DNA of 42,843 bases from a virus. Positions 14,331 through 40,337 of this stretch are shown one piece after another; the stretch's first letter is position 1, and every line of letters starts with the position of its first letter. The position numbers and the translations under genes were made by a program. Under the pieces are notes generated by a model. That model did no database searches and was not told the origin of the DNA. It worked only from the letters and a program-made list of their open reading frames with translations. The stretch covers positions 1 through 42,843 of IMG/VR virus record IMGVR_UViG_3300023116_003900; one strand, written 5' to 3'.

Positions 14331-14464
14331 TGGAAGAGTACGAATATTCTTTAGTTTGTTATTTCTGTGAGGCTAAAGTAATTCTTACTGTATGTGACAG
14401 CGAAGAAAAGCCTCGTGCTTGTCCAATGTGTGGAACAGAATGTGAAACAGACTGGGAAGAATGA
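14330..14464 (+). CDS. Small zinc-ribbon protein
   Basis: 44 aa, ATG overlapping the nrdB TAA. CYFC and CPMC form a zinc-ribbon pair in an otherwise acidic peptide. It overlaps the carbamoyltransferase start (ATGA). Small phage zinc ribbons of this type are common; function unknown. Confidence 0.6.
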   Translation: MEEYEYSLVCYFCEAKVILTVCDSEEKPRACPMCGTECETDWEE

Positions 14465-24532: not shown

Positions 24533-25635
24533 GTTATGAAGAAAAGACTCAAAAGTACAGTACATGGGGTGACAAGTATCTACAACATACGGACGTGCTG
24601 TACTCGATTCAGTATGAAGAGAAATTCAAGCCTATCAACGTTCAGTTATCGCTGTGCGAAATCTGTGATAGCGACTGCCCGTTCTGTTCTGTTGCGGCTC
24701 GTCCACTAAAAAGTTACATCCCATGGCCTAAGTTGGTCAAGATGATGGAAGACTTTAAGACACTCGGCGCTAAAGCAGTTGAGATCACCGGTGGTGGTAA
24801 TCCTATGCTGTATCGTGACAAAGAGCATAAGAAGAATATCACAGACGTAGTAGAGTTATGCGGTCAACTTGGCTTTGATGTGGGTATCATTACCAACAGC
24901 GAAAACATCGAGCGACATCTTAATGAGCGAGCGTTCAAGTGGCTCAACTGGATTCGAATCAGTCTGATTAAACTTGACGAAGGTAAGAATCCCGAAGATT
25001 ATGATTTCGGATCATTCCCTCGTGATAAGATCGGTCTGTCGTATATTATTTACGACGGCACTGGCGGTGTACCTGACGAACTGTCTCGCACAAAGAAGCC
25101 GTATATTGGCACTACGAAAGAGTCGATTCAAAAGATTGCTCGACTGATCGAACTAAATCCCGAAGTTAAGTTCTGTCGTATCGCAGGCAATGCGTTGGTT
25201 GATGGCTATCAGACAGAGATTCAGAACAAGTGGCGACCTGTGATCGAAGAGATCGACAGTCTGTCAAAGTTTTTTATCAAAGACATCTGGGACGCAACAC
25301 GACCTTTCGAAGAGGGCTGTTACGTTGGCTTGACTCGACCATATATCGCACCACATCCAGATGGCGGTGATTATCAAGTGTATATGTGCACGAGTCACGT
25401 GTTAGAAGATCGTACGTACAAGCTGGAATTTTCGCTTGGTAGTATTGACAACGTAGTCGAAATATGGGATAATGCTAATCTGAAGTACTCTATGAATGGA
25501 TATCCGTATGAAGTAAGAGACAACAAAGGCAAGTGTTGGGATAAGGCTTGCGGTACTTGTTTGTATTACAACAACAATCGGTTGCTTCATACAGTAGCAC
25601 AACGAATGGACCTCGACGATAGGAATTTTGCATAA
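24529..25635 (+). CDS. Radical SAM protein 2
   Basis: 368 aa. C46-x3-C50-x2-C53 (CDSDCPFC) is the cluster motif, with another cysteine at 43. EITGGGNPMLYRD matches the SAM-binding glycine block. C-terminal cysteines (GKCWDKACGTCLYY) suggest a second cluster. It is not close to the one at 22163 beyond the fold. Position between a GT8-like gene and a methyltransferase again suggests a sugar or nucleotide substrate, as inference. Confidence 0.82.
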   Translation: MSYEEKTQKYSTWGDKYLQHTDVLYSIQYEEKFKPINVQLSLCEICDSDCPFCSVAARPLKSYIPWPKLVKMMEDFKTLGAKAVEITGGGNPMLYRDKEHKKNITDVVELCGQLGFDVGIITNSENIERHLNERAFKWLNWIRISLIKLDEGKNPEDYDFGSFPRDKIGLSYIIYDGTGGVPDELSRTKKPYIGTTKESIQKIARLIELNPEVKFCRIAGNALVDGYQTEIQNKWRPVIEEIDSLSKFFIKDIWDATRPFEEGCYVGLTRPYIAPHPDGGDYQVYMCTSHVLEDRTYKLEFSLGSIDNVVEIWDNANLKYSMNGYPYEVRDNKGKCWDKACGTCLYYNNNRLLHTVAQRMDLDDRNFA

Positions 25636-26214
25636 ATGTTTGACAAGCATTATTATGAAAGCAACAACTACACCAACTACTTAGATCGACAAGATCGCTA
25701 CATTCGCCTCGCAGAAGAGGTCAGCGACTTTCTAAGTAAGATGAACCTACTACAAGAGCCAGTGCTTGACTTTGGCTGTGCAGTGGGTTTTTTGCTTAAG
25801 GGACTTGAAGGACGAAATCTAGATTGTTATGGCGTAGACATTTCAGAGTGGGCACTAGAGAAAGCACGTGAGCGTGGTCATGACGTAAGAAGTGAAGTTG
25901 ACTGGCTTAAAAAGCATGGTGTTGTGTTTGGGCTCGACGTGTTCGAACACATGAACTATGACGATCTGGAAGCGTTCTTTAAAAAGATTAAGACAAAAGC
26001 AATTGTTTTTCGTATGCCTGTCTGTGCCAATCCAGGTGAAGACTATGTGCTAGAATGTTCTCGCGTTGATCCTACTCATGTAGTTCGCTGGACAAAGGCT
26101 ATGTGGCGTGAGTTTTTTCGTACGTTCGGTTTTCTCAGTGTCGAGTTAAATCTTTCTACTATATACAACAGCGAAGGTGTTTACTCTGGTATTGCATTGA
26201 GACATGAGTACTAA
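25636..26214 (+). CDS. Class I SAM-dependent methyltransferase
   Basis: 192 aa. VLDFGCAVGFLLKGL (about 43-57) is motif I, CYGVDISEWALEKA motif II, and GLDVFEHM motif IV-like. It resembles small-molecule or sugar O-/C-methyltransferases of polysaccharide clusters (Methyltransf_23 type). It starts directly after the previous stop. Confidence 0.78.
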   Translation: MFDKHYYESNNYTNYLDRQDRYIRLAEEVSDFLSKMNLLQEPVLDFGCAVGFLLKGLEGRNLDCYGVDISEWALEKARERGHDVRSEVDWLKKHGVVFGLDVFEHMNYDDLEAFFKKIKTKAIVFRMPVCANPGEDYVLECSRVDPTHVVRWTKAMWREFFRTFGFLSVELNLSTIYNSEGVYSGIALRHEY

Positions 26215-26746
26215 CTATAAAATAGAGCAACTGATCACTGAGGAAGAAAGAAAAGAACTTAGAAATTTATTTGACACACTTGATCCTCAACTTGCTCATC
26301 AAGACTATAATCTTTTTGATGTAGACAAACGTGATCTACATCCTAAGCAGTGGAATGACACCATTCAAAAGATTTCTGCAAGAGGTGAAAGTAAAGGTCT
26401 TACTACTCATGCTCATTATTTTATAAAGTATGAAAAAGATGCGTTTACCAGAATACACACAGACGATGATAAAGTCATAAAATTAACAATCATCACCATG
26501 ATAGAAACAAAAGATTTAATTGGTGGTGGTAGTTTGATTTATGATAAATACAATAGGAAGCCGAGACCCGCATTTAAATATGCGAAAAGAACCGGTAATG
26601 GTCACGGTCCATATGGAAGAGACATTATACCGGTAATCGTAGAAACAAAGGATGGTGAATCGATGATCTACGACGGCAAAACTCTGCACGGTGTTACGCA
26701 GGTTCAACAAGGACATAGACTAGTATTAGTGAGTTGGTTTAAATGA
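26204..26746 (+). CDS. 2OG-Fe(II) oxygenase, prolyl-hydroxylase type
   Basis: 180 aa. H85-x-D87, H162 and R172 form the iron triad and the 2-oxoglutarate Arg of the P4H-like family; GGGSLIYD and GESMIYDGKTLHGV are adjacent strands. It would hydroxylate a protein side chain, lipid or sugar. It is not a TET/JBP enzyme by motif, so it does not by itself supply hydroxymethyl bases. Overlaps neighbours. Confidence 0.8.
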   Translation: MSTNYKIEQLITEEERKELRNLFDTLDPQLAHQDYNLFDVDKRDLHPKQWNDTIQKISARGESKGLTTHAHYFIKYEKDAFTRIHTDDDKVIKLTIITMIETKDLIGGGSLIYDKYNRKPRPAFKYAKRTGNGHGPYGRDIIPVIVETKDGESMIYDGKTLHGVTQVQQGHRLVLVSWFK

Positions 26747-27432
26747 CAGAGATTTTTGACTCAGACGGTTACGGAAATATTTTAGATTCCGACGGCAACA
26801 TCCAGTACATCTTTGAATCAGATGGCTGGTACATGTACGATTCGGACGGTCTTTTAGTTCTTGCACCTGTTCAAGATTTTGACTCTGGTGTGGTTCCGGC
26901 AGATTCTGCCGATAGCATTTTTGTAGAATGGCCTAAAACTTATATTGCACACAGAGGCAATCTTTACGGACCTAATCCTGAACTAGAGAATACAATTCCA
27001 CATATTGACTCTGCGATGGGTCAAGGATTTCACGTTGAGGTTGATGTTTGGAATATCAACGGAACCATGGTTCTGGGTCACGATCAGCCAAGAGATAGTG
27101 ACATTCTTTCAAATTATGTCACAGACAACTTCTTTATCAATCGCTCAAATCGGCTGTTAATTCATTGTAAGAATGCCGAAGCTTTATGTCACATGATGGG
27201 TTTAACATCGACGCATGGTCCTGCATTTGAATATTTTTTCCACGATAGTGATGCTTATACATTAACATCACAGTCGAGTATCGTTGCATATCCTAATAAA
27301 CCTTGTCCTCTCCACGTCGATGTAACTCCTACAACAATTGCGATGATGCCCGAAAGACACAACACAGACACCACAGACTTCAAAAAAATCTGTACAGACT
27401 ACCCAGTGAGATATCGCGACACCAGTTCTTAG
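26743..27432 (+). CDS. GDPD-like phosphodiesterase with N-terminal DSDG repeats
   Basis: 229 aa. Residues 1-50 carry four or five DSDG-type repeats spaced 8-10 residues apart. From about 66, YIAHRGNLYGPNPELENT, HVEVDVW and MVLGHD are the glycerophosphodiester phosphodiesterase core (HRG, ENT, ExD, HD). The usual later LxIEIK Glu is replaced by His (LLIHCK), and the domain is shorter than normal, so the reaction may differ. The repeat part resembles calcium loops or tail-fibre-like linkers. Phosphate-linked glycan removal or transfer is possible. Confidence 0.68.
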   Translation: MTEIFDSDGYGNILDSDGNIQYIFESDGWYMYDSDGLLVLAPVQDFDSGVVPADSADSIFVEWPKTYIAHRGNLYGPNPELENTIPHIDSAMGQGFHVEVDVWNINGTMVLGHDQPRDSDILSNYVTDNFFINRSNRLLIHCKNAEALCHMMGLTSTHGPAFEYFFHDSDAYTLTSQSSIVAYPNKPCPLHVDVTPTTIAMMPERHNTDTTDFKKICTDYPVRYRDTSS

Positions 27433-27434
27433 AC

Positions 27435-28796
27435 ATGATAAAGCTTATATTATTTGATCTTGATGGAGTATTAATCGACGCTAAAGACATTCATTACCGA
27501 ACGCTAAATGATGCGCTCGGTAGTGTTGGCGACTACACCATCACGCCCGAAGAGCATCTTAACATCTATGACGGTCACAAGACACGTCAGAAGTTGGACA
27601 TGCTCACCAAAAATAAAAACCTGCCTCTTGAAGCACATGACTTTGTTTATACCCGCAAGCAAGAACTTACGCTAAACGAGATTCGGCTACTCAAGCAACA
27701 GTCACACATCGTAGAACTATTCCAAAGATTGGATGTAAATGGTTATAAAATTGGCGTCTGTTCTAACAGCATTCGCTCAACTGTACTAACAGCCCTAGCC
27801 AAGACTGATCTGATCGAGTATTGCTCTGTCATCATTTCAAATGAAGACGTAAAGAACAGCAAGCCTCATCCAGAGATGTACTGGAAGGCTATGTCGATGA
27901 TGAACTGTTTGCCCGAAGAGACGATTATTGTCGAAGACTCACCACCCGGACTGCTGGCGGCTGAACGTTCTAGAGCCAAATATATAAGAGTAACAGATCC
28001 GTCGCAAGTGACGGTCGAGAATATCATGCCTAAGATTAATGGAGAACCAATTGTGAACAAGTGGAAAGATGAAAAGTTGAACGTGCTGATTCCTATGGCG
28101 GGTGCGGGTTCTCGATTCGCTGAAGCAGGCTACACTTTTCCTAAGCCTTTGATTCAAGTTAACGACAAGCCTATGATTCAAGTTGTTGTAGAGAATCTTG
28201 GTCTTGATGCAAACTACATCTTTGTTGTGCAGAAGAGTCATCGTGAGCAGTACAATCTGGACACGATGCTTGGTCTCATCTCACCGAACTGCAAAGTTGT
28301 TGAAGTCGATGGTATCACAGAAGGTGCGGCATGTACTGCGCTACTTGCAAAAGAGTACATTGACAATGACGCGCCTCTGTTTTTTGCAAACAGCGACCAG
28401 TATGTTGAGTGGGATCCAGTCGAGTTTATGTACAAGATGCAAGAAACGCAAGCAGATGGCGGTATCGTCACGTTCAAAGCAACTCATCCCAAATGGTCGT
28501 TTGCTAAAGTAGATGACAAAGGCTTTGTGACTGAGGTTGCAGAGAAAAATCCTATCAGCGATAACGCAACAGTAGGCTACTACTATTGGAAACGTGGTGC
28601 TGACTTTGTAAAGTATGCAGAGCAGATGATCGAAAGAGATGTACGTGTTAACAACGAATTCTATGTCTGTCCAGTGTTTAATCAAGCCATCGAAGACTGC
28701 AAGAATATTCGTATTCATGAAGCAGAAAAGATGTGGGGACTTGGAACACCTGAAGACTTAGAGTACTATCTAAAGAACTTCGACAATGAGATTTGA
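27435..28796 (+). CDS. HAD phosphatase fused to sugar nucleotidyltransferase
   Basis: 453 aa from ATG 27435, 2 nt after the previous stop. Residues 1-190 are a beta-phosphoglucomutase-type HAD domain (FDLDGVL at 7-13, CSNSIRSTV, SKPHPEMYW, IVEDSPPGL). Residues about 215-453 are an NTP_transferase domain (PMAGAGSRFAEAGYTFPKPL, then FFANSDQYVEW). It would both remove or move a sugar phosphate and charge a sugar 1-phosphate as a nucleotide sugar. Such fusions occur in capsule clusters. This is the only evident nucleotide-sugar maker in the window besides the epimerase. Confidence 0.88.
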   Translation: MIKLILFDLDGVLIDAKDIHYRTLNDALGSVGDYTITPEEHLNIYDGHKTRQKLDMLTKNKNLPLEAHDFVYTRKQELTLNEIRLLKQQSHIVELFQRLDVNGYKIGVCSNSIRSTVLTALAKTDLIEYCSVIISNEDVKNSKPHPEMYWKAMSMMNCLPEETIIVEDSPPGLLAAERSRAKYIRVTDPSQVTVENIMPKINGEPIVNKWKDEKLNVLIPMAGAGSRFAEAGYTFPKPLIQVNDKPMIQVVVENLGLDANYIFVVQKSHREQYNLDTMLGLISPNCKVVEVDGITEGAACTALLAKEYIDNDAPLFFANSDQYVEWDPVEFMYKMQETQADGGIVTFKATHPKWSFAKVDDKGFVTEVAEKNPISDNATVGYYYWKRGADFVKYAEQMIERDVRVNNEFYVCPVFNQAIEDCKNIRIHEAEKMWGLGTPEDLEYYLKNFDNEI

Positions 28797-29448
28797 TGAG
28801 CCTAAAGACTGGGAGTTATATCCAGGCGATACTTTCTATCAGAAGTTTAAGAGTAGAGGCGAACTCTATTCGATGACTCTTCCTGACTGGGAGATTGCAG
28901 AGAAATATCTTGATCGCAAGCGAGGCTGTCTTGATATCGGTGGACACATTGGTACAACCGCATTGCGTTATGCAAACAACTTCGAACAAGTCTATTCGTT
29001 CGAACCTCTTTATCACGAGATAATGAATCGAAACCTGAGCCACGTCACTAACATCGAAGTATATCCTTATGCTGTTTCAGATGCAGACGAAGAGATGACA
29101 ATGATCATGCGCTCAGGTAATACTGGTCTGTCTTTAATTCTTACAGATGAAACACGGCACTATAAAAATAGATCGGGTTACAATCCTAAAGAAATCAAGA
29201 TGGAAACAAGAGTAGTAGACGATTACTATTTCGCAGAGATCGATTTCATTAAGATTGATACAGAAGGCTTTGTACTACGTCCTCTTAAGGGAATGCTACA
29301 TACACTTGAAGAGAACGATTGGCCTTTGCTTCAGATTGAATTTAATAATTTGAATCAGAACACAGCAGAGTGCTTTGCTCTGTTGAAAGATTTAAAATAC
29401 GAGCAAGTCGATCAGTTTCATGTAGATCATTTTTTTCGGCGAGTTTAA
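28786..29448 (+). CDS. FkbM-family methyltransferase
   Basis: 220 aa. CLDIGGHIGTTALRYANN (motif I), VYSFEPLYHEIMNRN (motif II), VYPYAVSD and FIKIDTEGFVLRPLKG are the FkbM signature. O-methylation of a sugar is the common role. Overlaps the fusion gene by 11 nt. Confidence 0.85.
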   Translation: MRFDEPKDWELYPGDTFYQKFKSRGELYSMTLPDWEIAEKYLDRKRGCLDIGGHIGTTALRYANNFEQVYSFEPLYHEIMNRNLSHVTNIEVYPYAVSDADEEMTMIMRSGNTGLSLILTDETRHYKNRSGYNPKEIKMETRVVDDYYFAEIDFIKIDTEGFVLRPLKGMLHTLEENDWPLLQIEFNNLNQNTAECFALLKDLKYEQVDQFHVDHFFRRV

Positions 29449-29450
29449 TC

Positions 29451-30191
29451 ATGAGAGTCGCAGTCTGTATTTCTGGTGCTTGTGTAAGCAAGAATCCTAA
29501 TACCACCCTTCAAAAAAATCTAAGCAGAGTTAGACGATTCTTTCCTGATTATGATTATCATTTTGCTACATGGTCTGGATTTCAAGAGACGTTTGAAAAC
29601 AACTTTCCCGAAGAAACCGCACACTACTATCCTGAGCCTGATATAGGCTATCATCCTTACTTTGACATTCCTGAATCATTATGGGAATCAAGTCGCTTTC
29701 GCGAAGTAAAAGCCTTCATTCAAAGAGGTGGCATACCTCGACGCGAATGGACTTCACATCACACAAAACAACACTTGATTCATGCTTGGCTATGTGATAA
29801 GATAAAAGATGATTATGATGTAATCGTACGTGCGCGATTCGACACGTGGATCTACGAACATGCAGATTTTATACCGTACGTGATTGATACGTATGAAAAG
29901 AATCGCATCAATTCGTTTTCTGCTACGAAGCAACAACATTTCGATAAGTTGCGGCAGTTCGACACTAAGCCAGGTGGCAGACATCATAACTGGATTGTAG
30001 ATCAGTTAATTATGCATCCGATGAGTTTTATCGACAGAGCCTATGTTGATAGGCTACACGAAGAAAAACGCTTGCATCCCGCAGAGATGGGTTGGTATCA
30101 AGTATTGAGCAAGCCTAATGGAAGCACACATCGATGCTTTGATGGTTGGGTGAATCACGATAAAAACGTTTTGGAAAAATTCTTTAAATGA
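29451..30191 (+). CDS. Glycosyltransferase-like protein, VRxRxDTW family, copy 1
   Basis: 246 aa from ATG 29451. It starts MRVAVCISGACVSK, like small phage and bacterial glycan enzymes that begin with a nucleotide-binding strand. HHTKQHLIHAWL and DVIVRARFDTWIYEHAD (the acidic motif) are shared with the protein at 34417. The end has LHPAEMGWYQVLSK. I infer a glycosyltransferase of unknown class. Confidence 0.5.
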   Translation: MRVAVCISGACVSKNPNTTLQKNLSRVRRFFPDYDYHFATWSGFQETFENNFPEETAHYYPEPDIGYHPYFDIPESLWESSRFREVKAFIQRGGIPRREWTSHHTKQHLIHAWLCDKIKDDYDVIVRARFDTWIYEHADFIPYVIDTYEKNRINSFSATKQQHFDKLRQFDTKPGGRHHNWIVDQLIMHPMSFIDRAYVDRLHEEKRLHPAEMGWYQVLSKPNGSTHRCFDGWVNHDKNVLEKFFK

Positions 30192-30871
30192 AGAAGATCA
30201 TACTACAACATTGGACAGGACCTCTGGGTGAACTAGAAGAGCGTTCAAAAGCAAACATCGAAGAGTATGCTAAGTTCTGCGGTGCAGACTATCAGTTGAT
30301 ATCTGGTAACGTGTTTAGAAAACATCTATCAGCACCATGCCAAAAGATGATAATGCTTGACCCGCAGTTTGATGAGTACGATATGGTCGTCATGATGGAC
30401 ATCGATATGTTCACTCGTAAGGGCATGACGAAGAACATCTTTACAGATGATACAGGCATTGGTCGTCACTTCGGCATTCAGCCTTCGTTACGTCAGAAAC
30501 TCTATCAGAGATTTCCCTTGCTCGGCGACACTCGATATCCGTATTGGGGTGGATCTATCTATCGTCTAGACAAAGACATTCGTAAGAAGCTTCGAATTCA
30601 TATGGTAGATTGGGAGATGGATCATTTTAATAACAACTACGAAGACGAAGGCATTATGCACCGTCTCGCAATCAAAGCAAATCTCAAAGAAACGCCAGAT
30701 GTCTATCTCGACGAAGACAAGTGGAATCGGTCGTCGTTCGAAGAGAATGTAAGTGACGGATATATAATCCACGTAAGGCGTAAGATGAAGAACACGCCTG
30801 GCAGACCATCGCCAAAGCAAGACAAGATTTTGAACTATAGAAAATTAGTGGAGAAGGGAATTCTAGAATGA
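30188..30871 (+). CDS. GT-A glycosyltransferase-like protein
   Basis: 227 aa. VVMMDIDMFTRKGM has a DxD motif; YWGGSIYRLDKDIRKK and NNNYEDEGIMHRLAIKA fit later GT-A blocks. Its start (IILQHWTG) parallels that of the protein at 31800 (VIYQYWDG), so the two look like old duplicates. ATGA overlaps on both sides. Confidence 0.62.
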   Translation: MKKIILQHWTGPLGELEERSKANIEEYAKFCGADYQLISGNVFRKHLSAPCQKMIMLDPQFDEYDMVVMMDIDMFTRKGMTKNIFTDDTGIGRHFGIQPSLRQKLYQRFPLLGDTRYPYWGGSIYRLDKDIRKKLRIHMVDWEMDHFNNNYEDEGIMHRLAIKANLKETPDVYLDEDKWNRSSFEENVSDGYIIHVRRKMKNTPGRPSPKQDKILNYRKLVEKGILE

Positions 30872-31803
30872 AAGTAGTGATTACAGGAATGGCAGGTTTT
30901 ATTGGCTTTCATACTGCCCTTCGATTTCAACAAGCTGGTTATGAAGTACAAGGCTTTGACAACTTCAATAGCTACTATGATCCTCAACTTAAGTACAAGA
31001 GAGTAGGTAAGTTAAACGTTGATCATGGAATTATTTGCCCGAACTGTGATCTGAAAAGAAAAGACGATTTTGCAGGCTGGCTAAAAAGAAGCAAGCCCGA
31101 TCTTGTAGTTCATCTCGGTGCCATGGCAGGCGTTCGATACTCTATGGAGAATCCACAAGAGTACATCGACAACAACGTAACAGGTACTCTGAATCTAATT
31201 CAAGCCTGCGAAGAAGCGGGTGTCGAAAACGTCATCTATGCTTCAACTTCTTGTGTGATGCACGGCAACGATTTACCATGGAAAGAAGATGACTATCTGT
31301 ATCAGCAGATCAATCCGTATGGCTATACGAAGTGCATCAACGAGTCGCAGTTTGCCATCTCTAAAATTCCCAATGCTGTCGGCATGAGATTCTTTACAGT
31401 CTATGGTCCGTGGGGTCGACCTGACATGGCGTTATTCGACTTTACAAAGAACATCCTTGCGGATAAAGAAATCACGCTATTTAACTACGGTGACATGAAG
31501 CGAGACTTTACATACATCGACGATATCGTACAGGGCATTTGGCTTGTGTCACAGAATATGACACCACGCGACATGTACAACATCGGCTATGGCAAGCAAG
31601 TCGAACTAGAAAGATTTGTAACAGCAATCGAAACGTCTCTGGGCAAGAAGGCTATTAAAGCGTATGGTCCGAAACATCCTGCTGATGCAACAGAGACTTG
31701 GAGCGACACAACGAAACTTCAGAAACTTGGTTACAATCCTTCTACGCCAATCGAAGAGGGCGTTGACAACTTTGTGAAATGGTATATGGAGCACTACTCG
31801 TGA
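30868..31803 (+). CDS. NAD-dependent sugar-nucleotide epimerase
   Basis: 311 aa. TGMAGFIGFH (6-15) is the Rossmann NAD loop; HLGAMAGVRYSMENP and a catalytic YGYTK, with STS upstream, match UDP-glucuronate 4-epimerase-type extended SDRs; RDFTYIDDIVQGI is the later signature. It would provide an epimerised UDP- or GDP-sugar for the neighbouring transferases. Confidence 0.9.
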   Translation: MKVVITGMAGFIGFHTALRFQQAGYEVQGFDNFNSYYDPQLKYKRVGKLNVDHGIICPNCDLKRKDDFAGWLKRSKPDLVVHLGAMAGVRYSMENPQEYIDNNVTGTLNLIQACEEAGVENVIYASTSCVMHGNDLPWKEDDYLYQQINPYGYTKCINESQFAISKIPNAVGMRFFTVYGPWGRPDMALFDFTKNILADKEITLFNYGDMKRDFTYIDDIVQGIWLVSQNMTPRDMYNIGYGKQVELERFVTAIETSLGKKAIKAYGPKHPADATETWSDTTKLQKLGYNPSTPIEEGVDNFVKWYMEHYS

Positions 31804-32645
31804 AGAATGTAATTTATCAGTATTGGGACGGCAACGTTCGACCTAGCGCACAGTACGGCTCTGACTGTATGCGTGAATATGCAGAGCGAATTGGTGCTGA
31901 GTATGTGTTCGATAGAAATGCACAGTTCGGTAAGAAGTATGGATTAGGAAGAGTAACCCCTTATTATGGATGTTTTAAGCCCGTCTTCGACGACAAATAT
32001 CTTGATTACGATAATGTTCTGTTTTGCGATACTGATATATTTCCAGTCGATGGACTAGAAGAGAGCGTTTTCGAATCATTTACTGGTGAACTGGGTATGG
32101 GTCAAGAGCCTTTACAGCCGCAGTATCGCTACGACAAAAAGTTGAACAAGCAGTGCAATTCGAAAACCGAAGAACACTGGGCTAAACTGGTGACAGAAAA
32201 GTACGGCTGTGATTTGCCACGCGACGATCAGAATCGTCTACTTGTATTCAACTCAGGCGTTGTGTTATACTCTAATGCAGGCTTACGCAAATGCCGTGAG
32301 CAGTTTAAGCCGTTTCAAGAATATGTGCAGTTAGTCGACCGGGATCCAATCTGTGGTGGTAAAGTGTATGGTACTGACCAAGGCTATCTACACGCAATGG
32401 CTATGTCGATGGACATTGATTTCGTTGAGTTAGATACAGAATGGAATAGATGCGTAACGTGGGATCCATATGACAACGGCAATTCATTTGCAAGAACAGC
32501 AGTTGATCCAAAAACAAAAAAGACTAAGTTTGTACATATTCAGATGAGAGGCGCAGACAATCAGTCTGATAAATGGCATTGGACTGTCGCGAATAAGCCT
32601 AAGTCTGAATGGACACAAATGCAAAATGGTACCATGATACGATGA
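31800..32645 (+). CDS. GT-A glycosyltransferase-like protein
   Basis: 281 aa from a GTG overlapping the epimerase stop (GTGA), chosen over an ATG 21 nt upstream because it fits the spacing of the whole operon. VLFCDTDIFPVDGL has the DxD motif; VFNSGVVLYSN and YGTDQGYLHAMA are GT8-type blocks. Donor and acceptor unknown. Confidence 0.65.
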   Translation: MKNVIYQYWDGNVRPSAQYGSDCMREYAERIGAEYVFDRNAQFGKKYGLGRVTPYYGCFKPVFDDKYLDYDNVLFCDTDIFPVDGLEESVFESFTGELGMGQEPLQPQYRYDKKLNKQCNSKTEEHWAKLVTEKYGCDLPRDDQNRLLVFNSGVVLYSNAGLRKCREQFKPFQEYVQLVDRDPICGGKVYGTDQGYLHAMAMSMDIDFVELDTEWNRCVTWDPYDNGNSFARTAVDPKTKKTKFVHIQMRGADNQSDKWHWTVANKPKSEWTQMQNGTMIR

Positions 32646-33205
32646 ATTTTTTTGAGTACGAAGACTACGACGATTATGTCAAGCATCAAAAGAAGTGGTA
32701 TGCGTTGAAGCTGGGCAAGATCGTATATGTCAAGTCTGACACCATTAAACAGATCGTAGAGAATAAGCCTTTTGCATCTAGTGTTCTGTGTCACGGTACT
32801 CGATCAGGTGAAGAACAACGTCTGTTTCAAGCACTAGTGCCCTCAGCGAAAGTTGTAGGCTCTGAAATTGGTGATGGCTGTGAGCAATTTCCTATGACTG
32901 TTCAATGGGACTTCAATAACAAGAATCCTGATTGGGTAGGAAAGTTTGATATCGTATACACGAATGCATTTGATCATTGCATCACTCCTGTCAAGACACT
33001 TAAAGTTTGGAGAGACCAGCTTACTCCGAGCGGCAGACTCTTTGTTGAATATGCCGAGAATCGTTCTAACGTTTCAGAATCAGATCCTATGGGTGCGACA
33101 AACGAAGAGGTGCGTGGCTTTATCAAAGAGGCTGGAATGAAGGTAGTCTTAGAGTTGACGAAAGATATTAAACATCGAGGTAGAGTCTTTGTCTGTGAGA
33201 AGTAA
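32642..33205 (+). CDS. Putative class I methyltransferase
   Basis: 187 aa from ATG 32642 (ATGA). SVLCHGTRSGEEQRLF and VVGSEIGDG occupy motifs I and II of a Rossmann methyltransferase; FDIVYTNAFDHCITP and LTPSGRLFVEY motifs IV and V. The glycine motif is degenerate (CHGTRSGEE), so the call is moderate. Confidence 0.6.
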   Translation: MNFFEYEDYDDYVKHQKKWYALKLGKIVYVKSDTIKQIVENKPFASSVLCHGTRSGEEQRLFQALVPSAKVVGSEIGDGCEQFPMTVQWDFNNKNPDWVGKFDIVYTNAFDHCITPVKTLKVWRDQLTPSGRLFVEYAENRSNVSESDPMGATNEEVRGFIKEAGMKVVLELTKDIKHRGRVFVCEK

Positions 33206-33719
33206 AATATTTTGTATAGGTCTGTCTCGTACTGGCACTACCAGCTTCAGTGACTTCATGGCTCGCTGTGGCTATAACATCTTACATTATCCAAATGAGA
33301 CGCAACTGTTCGGTGGATTTGGTGATGGTGCGAGCGACATACCCGTTGTACTGCACTACAAGAAACTTGACAAGATGTTTCCTAAGTCAAAGTTTATCTA
33401 CACGATTCGGGACAACTGGGCTGATGCTGTAGAGCCTTACTTCTTGCGCAAGAAAGGGCGTGTGAATCAGGCATCGGCTCAGTTAGAGATTCGAAGACAG
33501 GTATATGGTAGTGTTGACTGGAATCGTGAACTGTATACAAATGCGTATACTAAACACGATGAAGACGTACGAGAGTACTTCAAAGATCGTCCTGATGATC
33601 TGTTGATTCTTGATATCATTGGCGGTGATCCTGTAAGCAAAGTTACAGACTTTCTTGGTATTGAAACTAAACTAACAGAGTTCCCAAAATCTAATTCGCG
33701 AGAGAAAACTTGGAAATGA
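33195..33719 (+). CDS. Sulfotransferase-family protein
   Basis: 174 aa from GTG 33195. KIFCIGLSRTGTTSFSDFM (3-21) is the PAPS 5'-phosphosulfate loop, and KFIYTIRDNWADAV the 3'-phosphate region. It may add sulfate to a glycan, using host PAPS. Shorter than most sulfotransferases, and no clear catalytic His is identified. GTG and an alternative TTG at 33189 are both possible. Confidence 0.75.
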   Translation: MRSKIFCIGLSRTGTTSFSDFMARCGYNILHYPNETQLFGGFGDGASDIPVVLHYKKLDKMFPKSKFIYTIRDNWADAVEPYFLRKKGRVNQASAQLEIRRQVYGSVDWNRELYTNAYTKHDEDVREYFKDRPDDLLILDIIGGDPVSKVTDFLGIETKLTEFPKSNSREKTWK

Positions 33720-34420
33720 ATGACGCATATGTGATCACATTACAAGACAATGAGATGTCGAATGAGTGTGCAGACAAGCTTATCGAATCTTCCCGATCGG
33801 TAAATAACGAGTTCGAAATCACCAAGTTCGATGCAATCGTTCCCGAGCGGGTAATTTCTTTAATGCAGTTGCACAATCTCAAGTGGAACTATCCTATGTC
33901 AGAGCCTGTGCTTGACATGCAGACAGGACTGTGGAAGCATCCCTATGTTACTGCTGTGACTGAAAAGCGCATTGCTTGTTTTCTGTCTCACTATCTTCTG
34001 TGGCAAAAGTGTGCGAAGGGTAAAGAAGGTATGTTCATCTTCGAACATGATGCAGAGTTTATCGAGCGAGTAGACGTGGCTCTGCTAAATCAAAGTTCTT
34101 TTGATATCATTGCATTGAACGATCCACGAGGTGCAACTCGTAAGTCTTCTGAATACTATCAGGCTGTCAAACTAAAACTGCCCGAGAAAGTTGTGCCTGT
34201 GCCCAAGATCGATCAAGATCAGATTCCTCAAGGTCTGCCTGGCAACTCTGCATACTTTATTAAGCCAGAAGGTGCTGTCAAACTGCTCCGTCTAGTCAAT
34301 GAGTACGGCGCTTGGCCTAATGATGCAATTATGTGCCGCCAGCTAATGCCTAAGAAACTAGGCATTGTTACAATGTTCAATACAAAAGTGCAAGGCGTTG
34401 AATCGACTACAACGTTATGA
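33716..34420 (+). CDS. GT25-like glycosyltransferase, copy 2
   Basis: 234 aa from ATG 33716 (ATGA). EKRIACFLSHYLLWQKC and FIFEHDAEFIE are the GT25 blocks; GNSAYFIKPEGAVKLL is the third. Paralogue of the proteins at 23121 and 35205. Acts on a nucleotide sugar; acceptor unknown. Confidence 0.72.
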   Translation: MNDAYVITLQDNEMSNECADKLIESSRSVNNEFEITKFDAIVPERVISLMQLHNLKWNYPMSEPVLDMQTGLWKHPYVTAVTEKRIACFLSHYLLWQKCAKGKEGMFIFEHDAEFIERVDVALLNQSSFDIIALNDPRGATRKSSEYYQAVKLKLPEKVVPVPKIDQDQIPQGLPGNSAYFIKPEGAVKLLRLVNEYGAWPNDAIMCRQLMPKKLGIVTMFNTKVQGVESTTTL

Positions 34421-35208
34421 AAATAGGCGTCTTCGTTGCAGGTCAAATTCGAAATGATTTCGATGACGCGAGATACTGTCTCGATCTTTTAGAGAATGGA
34501 TTTCCCACCGCGGAGTTCAAGTATCTGGTATGGGACTATGAAGTTGAGCAACATCGAAGACTGCTGAACACGATCTCACTGGGTGATTTAGAAAAGATAT
34601 CTAACTTTGACATTCACTACAGTCCATATCTGGACAATCCTACCGCCAGCGAACATTATCAGTACAAGAAAAAACTGAAGAATCCAAACGAACGGCATCT
34701 GCATCAAACAAAGCAGATGCTACTGCACGATCATCTGATGCAGTTACACGGATCAAAGTACGATGTAGTTGTTCGTGTTCGATGGGACACCTGGGTTTCT
34801 CCTCTAATAGACTTTACATCGTATGCAAAAGAATGCTATAATAACTCCTGTGTAATTTCTATAAACACTCGATCTGATTATTGGAATGATCTTCTGCACA
34901 TAGGCGAAGATCACGGCACTCATGCGCCGCATATCAAACATAGAAGACCTGATGGCACGATTGACGCGCCGATATGCTTTGATATGTTTCAAGATCAAGG
35001 TCTGATACTGCATCGAAGCGACGATTGGAACAGCGAGTTTGTGCAGACACTACATAAAGAAAAGAAACTACTAGCCGCAGAGTTTGGCTGGTGGCAGATA
35101 TGCGTTGAAGGCACAAGTCATCATCGATGGAAACACTATGATGGTGGTGCAGGGCTTTCAAGGTCTGTTCGACAGGCTGATCGAGAAAAAGTGAGAATGA
35201 TATTTTGA
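34417..35208 (+). CDS. Glycosyltransferase-like protein, VRxRxDTW family, copy 2
   Basis: 263 aa. MKIGVFVAGQIRNDFDDA opens with a nucleotide-binding-like strand. HQTKQMLLHDHL, DVVVRVRWDTWVS and LLAAEFGWWQI match the protein at 29451 segment for segment. ATGA overlap upstream, TTGA overlap downstream. Confidence 0.52.
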   Translation: MKIGVFVAGQIRNDFDDARYCLDLLENGFPTAEFKYLVWDYEVEQHRRLLNTISLGDLEKISNFDIHYSPYLDNPTASEHYQYKKKLKNPNERHLHQTKQMLLHDHLMQLHGSKYDVVVRVRWDTWVSPLIDFTSYAKECYNNSCVISINTRSDYWNDLLHIGEDHGTHAPHIKHRRPDGTIDAPICFDMFQDQGLILHRSDDWNSEFVQTLHKEKKLLAAEFGWWQICVEGTSHHRWKHYDGGAGLSRSVRQADREKVRMIF

Positions 35209-35849
35209 AATCATATGTAATTACAATCATGTCTGAGCCAAGGTCTGTTGAGAGTGCGCAACGTTGCATTGACTCAATGCCTGACTACAACATTGAGATG
35301 TTTCCTGCAATCACACCAAAAGATAATCCGTTTAAGATTGCAGAGAAAAAAGGCATACCGATTGATCTATTCAAAGAGGGATACTCACGCATCGAAAATT
35401 GCGTATCAGCCTTTCTTTCTCACCACTCGCTATGGGAGAAGTGCTACGAAGAAAAGACTGAGTACCAAATCTTTGAGCATGATGCAGTATGTACTAATAA
35501 CATTCCAAAGTTTATACCGTATCAAGGATGTATCTCGCTAGGTGCTCCTAGCTATGGACGATTCCAAACGCCGATGAAAATTGGTGTTGGACCACTAACG
35601 AGTAAAAGATACTTTCCCGGTGCTCATGCTTATCGTCTTAAACCTGTTGGTGCTAAGACTTTATTACAACGAGCAAAGACAGATGCTAGACCTACTGACA
35701 TTTATTTGAATGCAGATTACTTCCCTTGGCTTGAGGAGTACTATCCTTGGCCAGTGGTTGTAAAAGAGTCTTTCACTACAATTCAACGACTAGAGGGCTG
35801 TGTTGCAAAGCACGGCTATAATGGTGGCTATGAAATCCTTACCGTCTAA
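35205..35849 (+). CDS. GT25-like glycosyltransferase, copy 3
   Basis: 214 aa with a TTG start overlapping the upstream TGA; the Met-Lys-Ser-Tyr start leads straight into the conserved VITIMSEPRS strand, so no later start fits. NCVSAFLSHHSLWEKC and YQIFEHDAVC are the GT25 motifs. Paralogue of the copies at 23121 and 33716. Confidence 0.7.
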   Translation: MKSYVITIMSEPRSVESAQRCIDSMPDYNIEMFPAITPKDNPFKIAEKKGIPIDLFKEGYSRIENCVSAFLSHHSLWEKCYEEKTEYQIFEHDAVCTNNIPKFIPYQGCISLGAPSYGRFQTPMKIGVGPLTSKRYFPGAHAYRLKPVGAKTLLQRAKTDARPTDIYLNADYFPWLEEYYPWPVVVKESFTTIQRLEGCVAKHGYNGGYEILTV

Positions 35850-36498
35850 TGAGCGATGTTTTATCACGGGATGTGATGAAAAAACTGAATGGCAACTTAA
35901 GTGGTTTTTAGAGAACTATCTTAAGCATAACAAGACGCCGATTGTATTTGCTGACTTTGGTGTTAGCGAAGAGATGCGAACTTGGATTTGGCAAGTGAGT
36001 GCCTTTGCTGATATCATTGAGATTCCGAAGCAACGTGTTGGCGGTTGGTTTTACAAGCCCATTGCAATGTTAGCCTCTCCTTGCACAGAGACATGCTGGA
36101 TTGATACTGACATTGAAGTGCTTGGTGATATGTCTGGTATCTTTAAGTATGTTGAAGACAACAAGATCGGCATGGTCGAAGACAAGCCTTGGAGTAAACG
36201 TCGAGGCGAAAAATGGCACAACTCTGGTGTCATAGCCATTCGTGGTAAGCCAGCGATGTTGCACAAATGGGCTAATGAGTGTCGTGGTAAACCAAACGTT
36301 GGAGATCAAGAGGTTCTACACAGTATCGTGAATCTAAATCCTCTGATGCGACTGACACACATCTCGGACATACCGAATATATACAATTGGCTTCGCATTC
36401 AAATTATCGACGGCGAAGATTCTCCTAACAAGCTGGCTATGCATTGGACTGGTCAGAAAGGCAATGACGTGATACGGAAGAAGATGTATAATGGGTAA
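35830..36498 (+). CDS. GT-A glycosyltransferase-like protein
   Basis: 222 aa from ATG 35830, within the end of the upstream gene; 35821 is another possible start. CWIDTDIEVLGDMSGIF has the DxD motif, WHNSGVIAIRG the NSG block and VGDQEVLH the later one, as in GT8-like enzymes. Continuous with the operon. Confidence 0.65.
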   Translation: MKSLPSNERCFITGCDEKTEWQLKWFLENYLKHNKTPIVFADFGVSEEMRTWIWQVSAFADIIEIPKQRVGGWFYKPIAMLASPCTETCWIDTDIEVLGDMSGIFKYVEDNKIGMVEDKPWSKRRGEKWHNSGVIAIRGKPAMLHKWANECRGKPNVGDQEVLHSIVNLNPLMRLTHISDIPNIYNWLRIQIIDGEDSPNKLAMHWTGQKGNDVIRKKMYNG

Positions 36499-37240
36499 AG
36501 TAATTCATGTATTAGGTAACGGCGACAAGGCTCACTACTACAATCGCGAGAAGCGCGAGGGTATGAAACTGCTGTGCAATATGCCGCCGTTTGAAATGGA
36601 TCCTAAAGAAGTCTACGCAACATGCATGGTTGACTTTAAGATGATGATGGCGCTGACTGAAGGGTCTATCAAGCTTGATCAGTACGAATGGGTGCTCGGT
36701 ACTCGTCCTCGTATTTGGATGTATGAGCGTAGCACGTTCTATCTAAAGTATGCGAGCCGAGTGAGAGAATTCTATACACACGTGCCTAAGTACGCTGGAA
36801 ATGCGACTAACTTTAACTGTGGTCACATGGCAGTTCACTATGCGGCGAATAAGCACAAAGCCGATGAGATCCACATGTACGGATTCGATACCATCTTCGA
36901 TTTCAACATGCGGAGTGTGACAGACTTGGTGCTGTCGAGTGATCGTGGCGATACTAACAACTATCGTTTGTTGAACAACTGGCGTCCGATCTGGAGAGAT
37001 ATCTTCCGTGAGTTCAAGAACACCAAGTTCGTTCTTCATCACAACCACGACAGCCTGAAGATTCCAAAGCTTGACAACGTTGAAGTGAAAGTGTATAATG
37101 ATAAGATGTCTGCAACTCAGAAACGTAGAGATGAAAGTGATATCAGCGATGGACGTGGCATGGAAGTGCCTATTAACACTGCACCGCTCAATCGTAAAGC
37201 GAGACGTGCACAAGAAGCAATTCAACGCAAGGCAAAATAA
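36491..37240 (+). CDS. Conserved phage protein, possibly sialyltransferase-fold
   Basis: 249 aa. VIHVLGNGDKAHYY at the start and FNCGHMAVHYAANKHKADE with IHMYGFDTIFD resemble GT42-type sialyltransferase and related folds. The basic tail (PLNRKARRAQEAIQRKAK) is likely disordered. I recall similar unnamed proteins in marine phages. Last gene of the sugar run; assignment is weak. Confidence 0.45.
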   Translation: MGKVIHVLGNGDKAHYYNREKREGMKLLCNMPPFEMDPKEVYATCMVDFKMMMALTEGSIKLDQYEWVLGTRPRIWMYERSTFYLKYASRVREFYTHVPKYAGNATNFNCGHMAVHYAANKHKADEIHMYGFDTIFDFNMRSVTDLVLSSDRGDTNNYRLLNNWRPIWRDIFREFKNTKFVLHHNHDSLKIPKLDNVEVKVYNDKMSATQKRRDESDISDGRGMEVPINTAPLNRKARRAQEAIQRKAK

Positions 37241-37923
37241 TGTTTGAACATGTTGGTGTAGACCTAGGTTATGATGATCTAGAGTCTAACACAAGTGAAT
37301 CTGGCAGATTATACGAAACACCAGACGGCGTAAAGTATCCGTCTATTACTACTGTTCTTTCGATTCTGTCGCAAGACGCTATTCAAGCGTGGCGTAGACG
37401 TGTCGGTGAAGAAGAGGCTAATCGTATATCTTCACGTGCCTCTAAACGCGGCACGGCTGTTCATGCTATCGTCGAAGACTATCTCAACAACGTCGAAGAC
37501 TACAAAGAGAAATATCCTCTTAACATCATCGACAATTTTCTACCTCTGAAAAAAATCCTAGATACACGTATTGGTAAGATATACGCACAAGAAGTTCCGA
37601 TGTTCTCTCATCACTTGAGAGTTGCTGGTCGAGTTGACTGTGTTGCTGAGTTTGACGGTGTGTTGTCAATCATTGATTTTAAAACATCACGCAAACTTAA
37701 GCAGAAAAAATATATCGAAAACTACTTTATGCAGGAGTCTGCATATGCTATAATGTTCGAAGAAAGAACTGGCATGCCTATCACGCAACTGGTGACATTG
37801 ATCGCAGTTGATGATGAACAGCCACAGGTCTTTATCGAACATCGTGATAACTGGACAAAACCCTTGATAGAAACTATTGAGAAGTATGAAGCGAGGCAAC
37901 GTAGAAAAAATGGCAAACGTTGA
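37240..37923 (+). CDS. PD-(D/E)xK exonuclease (RecB/Cas4-like)
   Basis: 227 aa. H75 in GTAVHAIVED, D133 in GRVDCVAEF and D146-F-K148 in IIDFKTSRK form the RecB-family metal site, with the QESAYAIMFEERTG helix after it. Probably processes DNA ends in replication or recombination. Its ATG shares a base with the upstream TAA. Confidence 0.85.
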   Translation: MFEHVGVDLGYDDLESNTSESGRLYETPDGVKYPSITTVLSILSQDAIQAWRRRVGEEEANRISSRASKRGTAVHAIVEDYLNNVEDYKEKYPLNIIDNFLPLKKILDTRIGKIYAQEVPMFSHHLRVAGRVDCVAEFDGVLSIIDFKTSRKLKQKKYIENYFMQESAYAIMFEERTGMPITQLVTLIAVDDEQPQVFIEHRDNWTKPLIETIEKYEARQRRKNGKR

Positions 37924-38248
37924 AGAAAAAACTGTATACGATAACTTTATCGGTCAGAAAGCAAAAGACAATCGACCTGCTACTCTAGCAGAATTCCTTG
38001 ATGAAGATGAAGATGCTATCTTCGAAGAGCCGTGGCAAGAACACTGGCAGGGCATGCCTGAGTTTGAGCAAGACGAAAACAAACCCTACAAGACGATCAA
38101 CGTACACTTTCGTACCAAAGAAGACTACGAAGAGTTTGCGAAGATTATCGAACAGCCTTTGACTACAAAAACAAAGTCGATCTGGCATCCACGTCTAGAA
38201 ATTACCAAAAACGCACTCATGCGTTGGATTGAGGAGAACGATGACTAA
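37910..38248 (+). CDS. Small protein associated with DNA-modification genes
   Basis: 112 aa from ATG 37910. MPEFEQDENKPYKTINVHF, EDYEEFAKIIEQPLTTKTKS and IWHP are the conserved blocks. I recall this short family beside TET-associated glycosyltransferases and DNA methyltransferases in phages. Function is not known to me. It overlaps the nuclease by 14 nt and the glycosyltransferase by 8 nt. Confidence 0.6.
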   Translation: MANVEEKTVYDNFIGQKAKDNRPATLAEFLDEDEDAIFEEPWQEHWQGMPEFEQDENKPYKTINVHFRTKEDYEEFAKIIEQPLTTKTKSIWHPRLEITKNALMRWIEENDD

Positions 38249-39176
38249 TCCAAGATATCCAGTTTATATCATTTCGAAAGGGCGTCACGAGTCGATGTTT
38301 ACATCGCGCTCGTTGGCGCGTATGAAAGTACCGCACTACATTGCAATTGAGCCACAAGATGAAGCAAATTACGAACAAGCACTGGACAATTTTGGGATAC
38401 GGGAGTTTGTTACTCTACTGGTTGCACCTTTCTCTAATCACGGTGACGGTCCTGGGCGGGCTAGAAACTGGTGTTGGGATCACTCAATAGAACTTGGTGC
38501 AAAGCGACACTGGGTTCTTGATGACAACATTCAAGACTTCTATCGTCTGCACCGAAATCTTCGTGTTCGTGTTGAGTCTGGTGTTTGCTTCCGTGTCATG
38601 GAAGACTTTGTTGATCGATACACTAACGTAAAGATCGCTGGTCCTCAGTATCGATTCTTCTGCGCACCTAATCAGAAGTATCCGCCTTATGTGGCGAACA
38701 CACGTATCTACTCGTGTCTGTTAATCGAGAATGATTGCAAGCATCGCTGGCGTGGTCGTTACAACGAAGACACTGATATCTGTCTGCGTGTTCTCAAAGA
38801 CGGCGACTGCACCGTACAGTTCAATGCGTTTCTACAAGGCAAAGCCGCAACGCAGACTGTCAAGGGTGGTAACTCTACTGAGTTTTATCACAAAGAAGTT
38901 GGCTACGATCCTAAGACTGGCGAAGCACTCAAAGCAGACGATCTACTTGAAGTAAAAGATAGATACAATGTGGTCGGTACGGTCGCTAAGTCTCAGATGC
39001 TTGTTGACATGCATCCTGACGTGGCAAAGATGGTGTGGCGATATGGTCGATGGCACCATCACGTGAACTATGATCCGTTTAAGAAAAACAAGTTAGTGTT
39101 TAAAGAAGGCATCGAAGTGCCGAAGGGTGTAAACAACTACGGCATGAAGCTAGTAACAAACTGGGGTGTTGAGTGA
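38241..39176 (+). CDS. TET-associated-type glycosyltransferase
   Basis: 311 aa from ATG 38241. RYPVYIISKGRHESMFTSRS (5-24), IAIEPQDEANY, RHWVLDDNIQDFYRLHRNLR (metal-binding DDN at 94-96), NTRIYSCLLI and RGRYNEDTDICLRVLKDG (acidic motif 175-179) match the family found with TET/JBP oxygenases in phage base-modification operons. Those enzymes are thought to put a sugar on 5-hydroxymethylcytosine-type bases. No TET or hydroxymethylase lies in this window, so the base would be made elsewhere in the genome or host. Family call strong; DNA substrate inferred. Confidence 0.83.
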   Translation: MTNPRYPVYIISKGRHESMFTSRSLARMKVPHYIAIEPQDEANYEQALDNFGIREFVTLLVAPFSNHGDGPGRARNWCWDHSIELGAKRHWVLDDNIQDFYRLHRNLRVRVESGVCFRVMEDFVDRYTNVKIAGPQYRFFCAPNQKYPPYVANTRIYSCLLIENDCKHRWRGRYNEDTDICLRVLKDGDCTVQFNAFLQGKAATQTVKGGNSTEFYHKEVGYDPKTGEALKADDLLEVKDRYNVVGTVAKSQMLVDMHPDVAKMVWRYGRWHHHVNYDPFKKNKLVFKEGIEVPKGVNNYGMKLVTNWGVE

Positions 39177-39718
39177 ATGTAAAAGAAGCAACTAAAGAGT
39201 TGCATGATAAGGTAGAAGAAACGGTCTTTGCACAAAGACTACTCAGCGGCGACTATGACGAAGATGATTATGTGCGCTATCTAAATGCGCAGTATGTCAT
39301 CTTTGATGCCATGGAAAATCATTTCGAATATCGTATTCCTAATGACGCACTGCATCGTTGCGAAGCTATCGAAAAGGACTTGATGTCTCTTGGTAAAAGA
39401 CCTTCTCGTTTGATTACTCCTTACTCTGCTTGTCGTTATGCTGATTACATTCTAGGCGTAAATGAGTGGAGCGAAGAGCAACGCAATTCGCACGTCTATC
39501 TTAACTATCTTGGCATGATGTTTGGTGGTAGCATTGTTTCGAAAGGAGTGCCTACGCCAGGACACATGTATAAGTTTGAGTCACGTCAAGAATGTATTAA
39601 AAACATACGTGAACTAGACCTCGATGTAAATCAAGTAAAAGAAGGTTTTCGATATCAGATCGAACTAATGGAAGAGCTAGAGAGAATCAAGCATGTCTCT
39701 AAAGAACAGACTGATTGA
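39173..39718 (+). CDS. Heme oxygenase
   Basis: 181 aa, GTG start overlapping the upstream TGA. ELHDKVEE with H11 is the proximal heme ligand region; YVRYLNAQYVIFDAMENHFE and YLGMMFGGSIVSKG (G118-G119, distal helix) are family blocks. It opens heme to biliverdin, releasing iron and CO. The bilin reductase gene follows with a 26-nt overlap, so biliverdin should be its substrate. Shorter than many bacterial enzymes (about 200-240 aa). Confidence 0.82.
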   Translation: MNVKEATKELHDKVEETVFAQRLLSGDYDEDDYVRYLNAQYVIFDAMENHFEYRIPNDALHRCEAIEKDLMSLGKRPSRLITPYSACRYADYILGVNEWSEEQRNSHVYLNYLGMMFGGSIVSKGVPTPGHMYKFESRQECIKNIRELDLDVNQVKEGFRYQIELMEELERIKHVSKEQTD

Positions 39719-40337
39719 AGTTACTAATCAGATGCAGGAAATCATCCTGCGTCAGCCTGGTGTCAAGCCGATGGACACTGAAGACTTTGGTTGGGAAAAC
39801 TATCGATGGTCAGGTGATAAGTTTCGTCTAGCGCACATCGAACGATTCTTTGAAGCAGGCTTGCTTGTAGCCCATGTCACATGTTTTCCACATGAAGGAG
39901 ATGCCGCACCCATCTTTGGCTTTGATGTAGTTGGTAGCGAGAAGACTGGTAAGATTGGTGGTGCATTTCTAGACTACTCACCCGTTCTGTATGATACCAA
40001 ATGGCACGATACTGAATGGAACTCTGATCGTATTCTGCCCGAGTGGGCTACGGTGTTCTCTGATGACTTCATTGCTCTCCGTCCACACGAAGATGAATAC
40101 GAGCCGTTCTTTGAGCTATCGCTGACTAAGTTCGAAGAGTACTTTAATGCACTTGATACCTCAGTACACGTCGATACGCCTGCCGCCAAAGCACTGGTCA
40201 TCGAGCGACAGAACGAGTACTGCGAGAAACAAGCGTCCAATCCCCGGACCTACGCCGCTCTGAAGCACAAGATTGGTGCTGAGAGAGCGAGGTATTTCAT
40301 GACTGAGATACTTTTCCCCAAAATCGTAAGTATTTGA
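39693..40337 (+). CDS. pcyX: Ferredoxin-dependent bilin reductase, PcyX-like
   Basis: 214 aa. RLAHIERFFEAGLLVAHVT, PIFGFDVVGSEKTGKIGGAF, LDYSPVLYDTKW with D94 (catalytic Asp of the family), LPEWATVFSDDFIALRP, and a C-terminal QNEYCEKQ helix mark the FDBR family. I favour the PcyX branch, described from ocean viral sequences outside cyanophages, over PebS of cyanophages, because of its general motif pattern. It should reduce biliverdin, probably to phycoerythrobilin, with host ferredoxin. Exact product needs testing. Last gene of the long operon. Confidence 0.8.
   Translation: MSLKNRLIEVTNQMQEIILRQPGVKPMDTEDFGWENYRWSGDKFRLAHIERFFEAGLLVAHVTCFPHEGDAAPIFGFDVVGSEKTGKIGGAFLDYSPVLYDTKWHDTEWNSDRILPEWATVFSDDFIALRPHEDEYEPFFELSLTKFEEYFNALDTSVHVDTPAAKALVIERQNEYCEKQASNPRTYAALKHKIGAERARYFMTEILFPKIVSI

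Follow-up and report, generated by a model that had tools for sequence, protein, structure and literature searches.

A TAGT-family glycosyltransferase and its SIWxP partner domain form a conserved, probably DNA-directed module in phages

To what does a viral glycosyltransferase attach its sugar when no TET or hydroxymethylase gene accompanies it, and what does the small gene that overlaps its start contribute? These questions were raised by a locus in the IMG/VR virus record IMGVR_UViG_3300023116_003900. The window analysed here is this whole record of 42,843 bases, which is probably a fragment of a larger virus, and the incompleteness of the record limits statements on genome-wide absences. 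The earlier note, which was made from the sequence alone, had read the two genes at 37910-39176 as a TET-associated glycosyltransferase (TAGT) with a small neighbour, implying sugar-decorated DNA. The coordinates of the pair proved exact, and both ORFs as well as the family match were confirmed. The features of the locus are as follows.

37240..37923, plus strand: PD-(D/E)XK exonuclease gene (PF12705 33 bits, phrog_298 2e-77), overlaps the small gene; part of the surroundings, not of the module
37910..38248, plus strand: small partner gene, an ORF of 112 aa, with ATG at 37910 and TAA at 38246-38248
38087..38236, plus strand: SIWxP domain core (KTINVHFRTKEDYEEFAKIIEQPLTTKTKSIWHP...RW), from a local profile match
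38231..38236, plus strand: GAGGAG inside the small gene, 4 bases 5' of the ATG at 38241; judged from its sequence, the probable ribosome-binding site of the TAGT gene
38241..39176, plus strand: TAGT-family GT-A glycosyltransferase, 311 aa (PF20691, phrog_842, AlphaFold2, Foldseek)
38520..38528, plus strand: Asp-Asp-Asn (residues 94-96) of the TAGT
38766..38771, plus strand: Glu176-Asp177 (YNEDTD) of the TAGT

The ATG of the TAGT gene falls within the 3' end of the small gene, and both are read from the plus strand. Compared with a 98%-identical relative (L009), the TAGT gene showed a dN of 0.010 and a dS of 0.28 (dN/dS ~0.04), and the small gene a dN of 0.045 and a dS of 0.39 (dN/dS ~0.12). 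The former is under strong purifying selection, and the evolution of the latter is also purifying.

The protein encoded at 38241-39176 matched PF20691 (TAGT) over profile positions 1-205 of 205 with 161 bits (4.5e-47; cut-off 27.5), which agrees with the family named in the earlier note, and it matched phrog_842 at 1.8e-47. At such similarity, chance is ruled out as the source of the family match. An AlphaFold2 model built from 45 window and environmental sequences had a mean pLDDT of 87, and its best solved neighbours in Foldseek were the GT-A enzymes heparosan synthase, SpsA, a mannosyltransferase and LH3. A phmmer search of the window protein against solved structures gave no useful match. 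Asp94 and Asp95 were invariant in 45 and in 50 aligned members, and together with Glu176-Asp177 they were retained even when two divergent second TAGT copies were aligned. By analogy with GT-A enzymes, Asp-Asp-Asn 94-96 probably binds metal and the nucleotide-sugar, and Glu176-Asp177, with a role taken from GT2 enzymes, is a candidate catalytic base region. The family match, the purifying selection, the modelled GT-A fold and the invariant residues all point to a GT-A transferase that is putatively active.

The small gene consists of an acidic N-terminal part, an HWxGMPEFxQ motif and the SIWxP domain, and no Pfam or PHROG family matched it. The domain core of ~50 residues contains T-K-S-I-W-x-P, of which T, K, W and P were invariant in 14 diverse copies. 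In the model of a fused homologue, the domain was predicted to be beta-alpha-beta(-alpha-beta) and its place was immediately before the transferase's first strand. In Pfam, Smg4_UPF3 scored below threshold (19 bits; cut-off 24), which is a hint of an RRM-like fold and not evidence for it.

Co-occurrence of the two parts was counted both ways, in loci fetched by the TAGT and in loci fetched by the SIWxP domain. The loci were picked by similarity to the window or its relatives, so the pairing claim covers this TAGT branch, not all TAGTs. Throughout 245 related loci, the domain adjoined the TAGT or was fused to it wherever the flank was present. Among the loci fetched by either part, the arrangement was fused in 12, adjacent in 110 and separated by one intervening gene in 47, and the 6 apparent exceptions were all contig ends. 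The domain was also found in all 76 of the 80 distant TAGT loci that had upstream DNA, standing at the end of a longer protein in 51 of these 76. In annotated phage records it was rare (18 of 50,697), and all 18 carried a TAGT. The earlier note had described the small gene as a recurrent neighbour, and it is more than that: no TAGT locus with an available flank lacked its domain, and several phages have the domain joined to the enzyme.

The SIWxP domain forms the N-terminal part of the TAGT protein in Ah1, phage 65, PTm1, POP12 and Kuja, and tandem copies are fused to the TAGT in five environmental relatives (L044, L051, L053, L072 and L073). In distant loci the domain is fused to ParB_N: among seven longer SIWxP proteins scanned, four passed the PF02195 cut-off and one more matched below it. 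SIWxP is an obligate accessory domain of this TAGT branch and apparently undescribed so far. A literature search combining TAGT, ParB, phage and glycosyltransferase found no paper; Iyer et al. 2013, which lies outside that scope, may mention the domain or the ParB link.

Several unusual arrangements were also observed. At L233 4452-5999, one protein combines a divergent TAGT, ParB_N and the SIWxP domain. Short stand-alone SIWxP-like copies lie directly 3' of the fused TAGT in Ah1 (L002 8903-9103) and POP12 (L005 8852-9031). Vibrio phage Kuja (L006 7581-10266) has two tandem TAGTs with N-terminal SIWxP-like regions, in both of which the motif has decayed.

A gene was inserted between the SIWxP domain and the TAGT in 49 of the 245 loci. 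These slot genes fell into five unrelated multi-locus families and two singletons. Of the five families, three resemble glycosyltransferases and two are methyltransferases:

methyltransferase-like (Methyltransf_11 at threshold)
second divergent TAGT (30 bits)
GT4-like glycosyltransferase (below cut-off)
resembling RXYLT1 (below cut-off)
FkbM methyltransferases

This diversity would be consistent with enzymes that lengthen or cap a single sugar as it grows.

In 66 dereplicated TAGT loci, the neighbouring genes were identified by their sequences and by comparison with relatives that carry annotation. Genes like gp46 and gp47 stood upstream of the pair in 39 and 32 loci; on the downstream side, the sliding clamp was present in 21 and the clamp loader in 16. 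In Vibrio phage henriette 12B8, the pair lies between clamp-loader genes and those of dUTPase and DNA polymerase. In distant loci of temperate type, a terminase gene follows the TAGT and the ParB_N protein is encoded alongside. The window has the exonuclease gene and a long glycan-type cluster upstream of the pair and a heme oxygenase and a bilin reductase gene downstream, and about 5 or 6 of the 66 loci showed surroundings of this type near the TAGT, with the exonuclease neighbour in 6.

The closest named relative of the window TAGT is the type represented by Aeh1ORF087c of Aeromonas phage Aeh1 and KNT77_gp080 of Ah1. It shows ~50% identity over the full enzyme and carries the same SIWxP domain immediately N-terminal of it. 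In the Aeh1/Ah1 type the two form one protein, whereas in the window the domain is encoded by a separate overlapping gene; the window also differs in its surrounding glycan cluster and bilin genes. A 2021 list that follows Iyer et al. 2013 includes Aeh1ORF087c among predicted glucosyltransferases of DNA, with the entry 'presumably modifies DNA, unknown base' (PMC8056088); from this description, it would be the Aeh1 TAGT found here. Published gene tables give no gene 42, no gene 56 and none of the three T-even glucosyltransferases, among them alpha-GT and beta-GT, for Aeh1 and 65 (Petrov 2010, PMC2993671). The same study argues that a major cytosine modification is probably absent from T4 relatives in which the entire modification network is missing.

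Solitary TAGTs, with neither alpha-GT nor beta-GT, were counted in 288 of 753 phage genomes in a 2026 report, which calls them potentially novel transferases (PMC13216743). The window TAGT likewise stands without a partner glucosyltransferase; the passages of the report consulted here do not mention a partner domain, whereas in this analysis one accompanies a large branch. With its adjacent SIWxP gene (37910-38248), the window matches the Aeh1-type solitary TAGT plus SIWxP. The module is a variant of the known solitary TAGT of Aeh1 type, with an obligate domain.

The T6/T2 beta-1,6-glucosyl-alpha-glucose transferase (T6 KMB99_gp043) belongs to the same Pfam family with 37 bits. A GT-A fold is reported for the T6 enzyme and DNA glucosylation for the T2/T6 TAGT only (PMC13216743). 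The T6 enzyme showed no pairwise BLASTP similarity to the window TAGT (E 0.31), it was missed by a profile of window-type TAGTs, and the surrounding 25 kb contained no SIWxP domain. T6 has gene 42 and alpha-GT, whereas the relatives of the window mostly have neither; in T6, alpha-GT adjoins gp47 and the TAGT adjoins gene 42. Assigning the T6 activity by homology was ruled out by the missing pairwise similarity, so that this activity is not directly transferable to the window gene. Since T6 shares the family at the profile level only, Aeh1-type proteins should not be assigned a function from their database label 'beta-glucosyl-HMC-alpha-glucosyltransferase'. The window TAGT also shares its family with the TET-linked TAGTs, and TET was not found in the relatives' records searched. 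Those TET-linked TAGTs, attributed to Iyer et al. 2013, are reportedly the origin of the family name.

In the TAGT chemistry known so far, the acceptor base has to be hydroxymethylated or to carry a glucose already. When the 45 window proteins were scanned with Pfam, no TET, hydroxymethylase or C5 methylase was found among them; the earlier note had likewise given the first two as absent from the window. Tet_JBP gave no match in the records of 20 relatives and in T6, and this is the weakest of the absences because the profile matched in no control genome. No C5 cytosine methylase was detected in the records of 14 relatives, where the control matched. The loci scanned (25,586 frames) contained a single case, in L180, which ruled out this enzyme as the usual neighbour; it is encoded at 1840-2715 of a Mycoplasmataceae MAG contig, ~430 bases after the TAGT and SIWxP pair. 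Alpha-GT (PF11440) occurred in none of 16 TAGT records, with a T6 control of 859 bits, and was thus rejected as the first-sugar enzyme of the relatives. QueC (PF06508, preQ0 pathway) was likewise found in none of the 16 records (control matched), which ruled out a 7-deazaguanine acceptor.

The PF00303 profile detects T6 gp42 and thus has a working control. The PF00303 proteins of Ah1, 65, henriette and Kuja carry Asn where T6 gp42 has Asp and are therefore thymidylate-synthase-like, although a dUMP hydroxymethylase would carry Asn too, so that this residue is not decisive against a 5-hydroxymethyluracil route in the four phages. POP12 has a single PF00303 gene, split as by an intron, and 12 of 13 environmental records gave no match. 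The complete relatives Ah1, 65, henriette, Kuja and POP12 have a thymidylate synthase and no recognisable dCMP hydroxymethylase, C5 methylase or TET. Among the relatives searched, only Tenacibaculum phage PTm1 had a hydroxymethylase-like gene; its product gp167, annotated as pyrimidine hydroxymethylase, has Asp as in T6 gp42. A literature search for the measured DNA composition of Aeh1, PTm1 and Kuja found nothing direct.

A 2OG-Fe(II) oxygenase gene, absent from the earlier note, was found at 26204-26746 within the glycan cluster. Its product matched phrog_61 (2OG-Fe(II) oxygenase) and, below the cut-off of 26.2 bits, PF09859 Oxygenase-NA (21.6 bits). Homologues lie ~6 kb upstream of the TAGT in the long records G001 and G003. 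This type occurred in 3 of 18 TAGT records, none of them from isolated phages, and PF13640 added one more; on these counts, the oxygenase was rejected as a general acceptor maker. It is a possible acceptor maker in the lineage of the window only.

The earlier note had concluded that the acceptor base must be made elsewhere in the genome. This does not follow, because no known maker was found in most relatives and PTm1 was the sole hydroxymethylase-like case. The search for modified-base makers that it had proposed, run here on the relatives, went largely against its reading as far as known makers are concerned; for the window, it covers the incomplete record. If the acceptor is a DNA base, it would in most relatives come from an enzyme that is so far not known to modify bases.

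We propose, with a probability of roughly 60%, that the pair is a two-part DNA glycosyltransferase in which the TAGT is responsible for catalysis and the SIWxP protein for recruitment or site choice. The two overlapping genes would act as one functional unit of a GT-A enzyme and an accessory protein, attaching sugar from a nucleotide-sugar onto phage DNA after replication or before packaging. The SIWxP protein may select the site, or it may tether the enzyme to DNA or to the machinery of replication or packaging. The slot enzymes of the relatives, second glycosyltransferases and methyltransferases, would probably extend or cap the sugar, and the sugar would hide phage DNA from host nucleases. 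Here we infer catalysis, DNA as the substrate and the role of the partner. The family, the replication and terminase neighbourhoods and ParB_N make DNA plausible as the substrate, and the whole is probably a conserved, DNA-directed glycosyltransferase module. Against DNA stand the missing known makers of a glycosylatable base in most relatives, the argument of Petrov 2010 on T4 relatives without the modification network, the lack of pairwise similarity to the T6 TAGT, and the position of the window pair behind a large glycan-type cluster, which also fits a surface or protein acceptor.

The main rival is that the acceptor is not DNA and that the TAGT finishes a glycan of the 21.3-37.2 kb cluster, on host surface polysaccharide or virion proteins. 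Immediately upstream lies a long series of glycosyltransferase, sulfotransferase, epimerase and FkbM genes, which speaks for it, as do the polysaccharide and protein glycosyltransferases among the structural neighbours (heparosan synthase, LH3) and the DNA acceptor maker not found in most relatives. However, cluster genes stand near the TAGT in only ~5 of the 66 dereplicated loci, compared with up to 39 for replication genes; loci of temperate type have terminase genes and the ParB_N protein beside the TAGT instead, and the one characterised branch of the family acts on DNA (PMC13216743). We therefore regard a non-DNA acceptor as unlikely. A more specific proposal is that the pair is a self-contained DNA decorator with a novel acceptor: the SIWxP or ParB_N-SIWxP protein would prepare or present a base or backbone position that is neither a 5-hydroxymethylpyrimidine nor a 7-deazaguanine, the TAGT would add the first sugar, and exchangeable slot enzymes would diversify it. 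This is put forward only tentatively.

The version of the earlier note, in which the sugar sits on a 5-hydroxymethyl-pyrimidine made by TET and a methylase or by a hydroxymethylase elsewhere in the genome, draws on the hydroxymethylase-like gp167 of PTm1, the C5 methylase of L180 and the incompleteness of the window's genome. It now appears improbable in view of the Tet_JBP and C5 methylase searches (the former with no positive control matched), the thymidylate-synthase-like proteins of four phages, the intron-split gene of POP12, the empty environmental records, and the missing gene 42 of Aeh1 and 65 (PMC2993671). Hydroxylation of a DNA base by a 2OG-Fe(II) oxygenase such as that at 26204-26746, followed by glycosylation by the TAGT, is very improbable: the weak PF09859 match, phrog_61 and the upstream homologues of G001 and G003 are set against its scarcity in TAGT records, its absence from isolated phages and its place inside the glycan cluster. 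It is hardly conceivable that the TAGT is a decaying, functionless leftover of a T6-like pathway. The acceptor maker is missing, and atavism has been raised for T2 relatives without an alpha-glucosylated base (PMC8056088), but strong purifying selection, invariant active-site residues, a conserved partner domain and wide spread all oppose decay.

For the acknowledged question of solitary TAGTs, it is of interest that throughout one large branch a specific accessory domain comes with the enzyme, in many cases linked to ParB_N. With cultivable phages named that have the pair and no known acceptor maker, the question can be approached experimentally with two genes. If DNA is the target, Aeromonas phages already in collections are expected to contain a modified base that is new, or to make one in a new way, and the database label now on these genes would be corrected.

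The window contained further genes of interest. The cluster at 21310-37240 encodes GT25 and GT8 family transferases, a sulfotransferase, an FkbM methyltransferase, an epimerase, an HAD and nucleotidyltransferase fusion, two radical SAM proteins and several proteins without a Pfam match. The two carbamoyltransferases noted earlier elsewhere in the window are real (14461-16059 and 16471-18243; PF16861 and PF02543), with a gene for a SegE-type GIY-YIG endonuclease between them (14461-18243). Their description as a known companion type of the TAGT did not hold and was rejected, because carbamoyltransferases occurred in only 2 of 16 TAGT records and their relatives, in 144 phage records, were mostly from cyanophages, which are absent from the TAGT-bearing records. 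Directly 3' of the TAGT, with a 4-base overlap, genes for a heme oxygenase and a ferredoxin-dependent bilin reductase were found (39173-40337); this pigment-gene pair is known from marine phages and was common to ~5 of the 66 dereplicated TAGT loci. In addition, 10294-12279 encodes the large subunit of a ribonucleotide reductase, which has a glutaredoxin domain at its C-terminus; a NifU/IscU-like gene and the gene of the small subunit come next.
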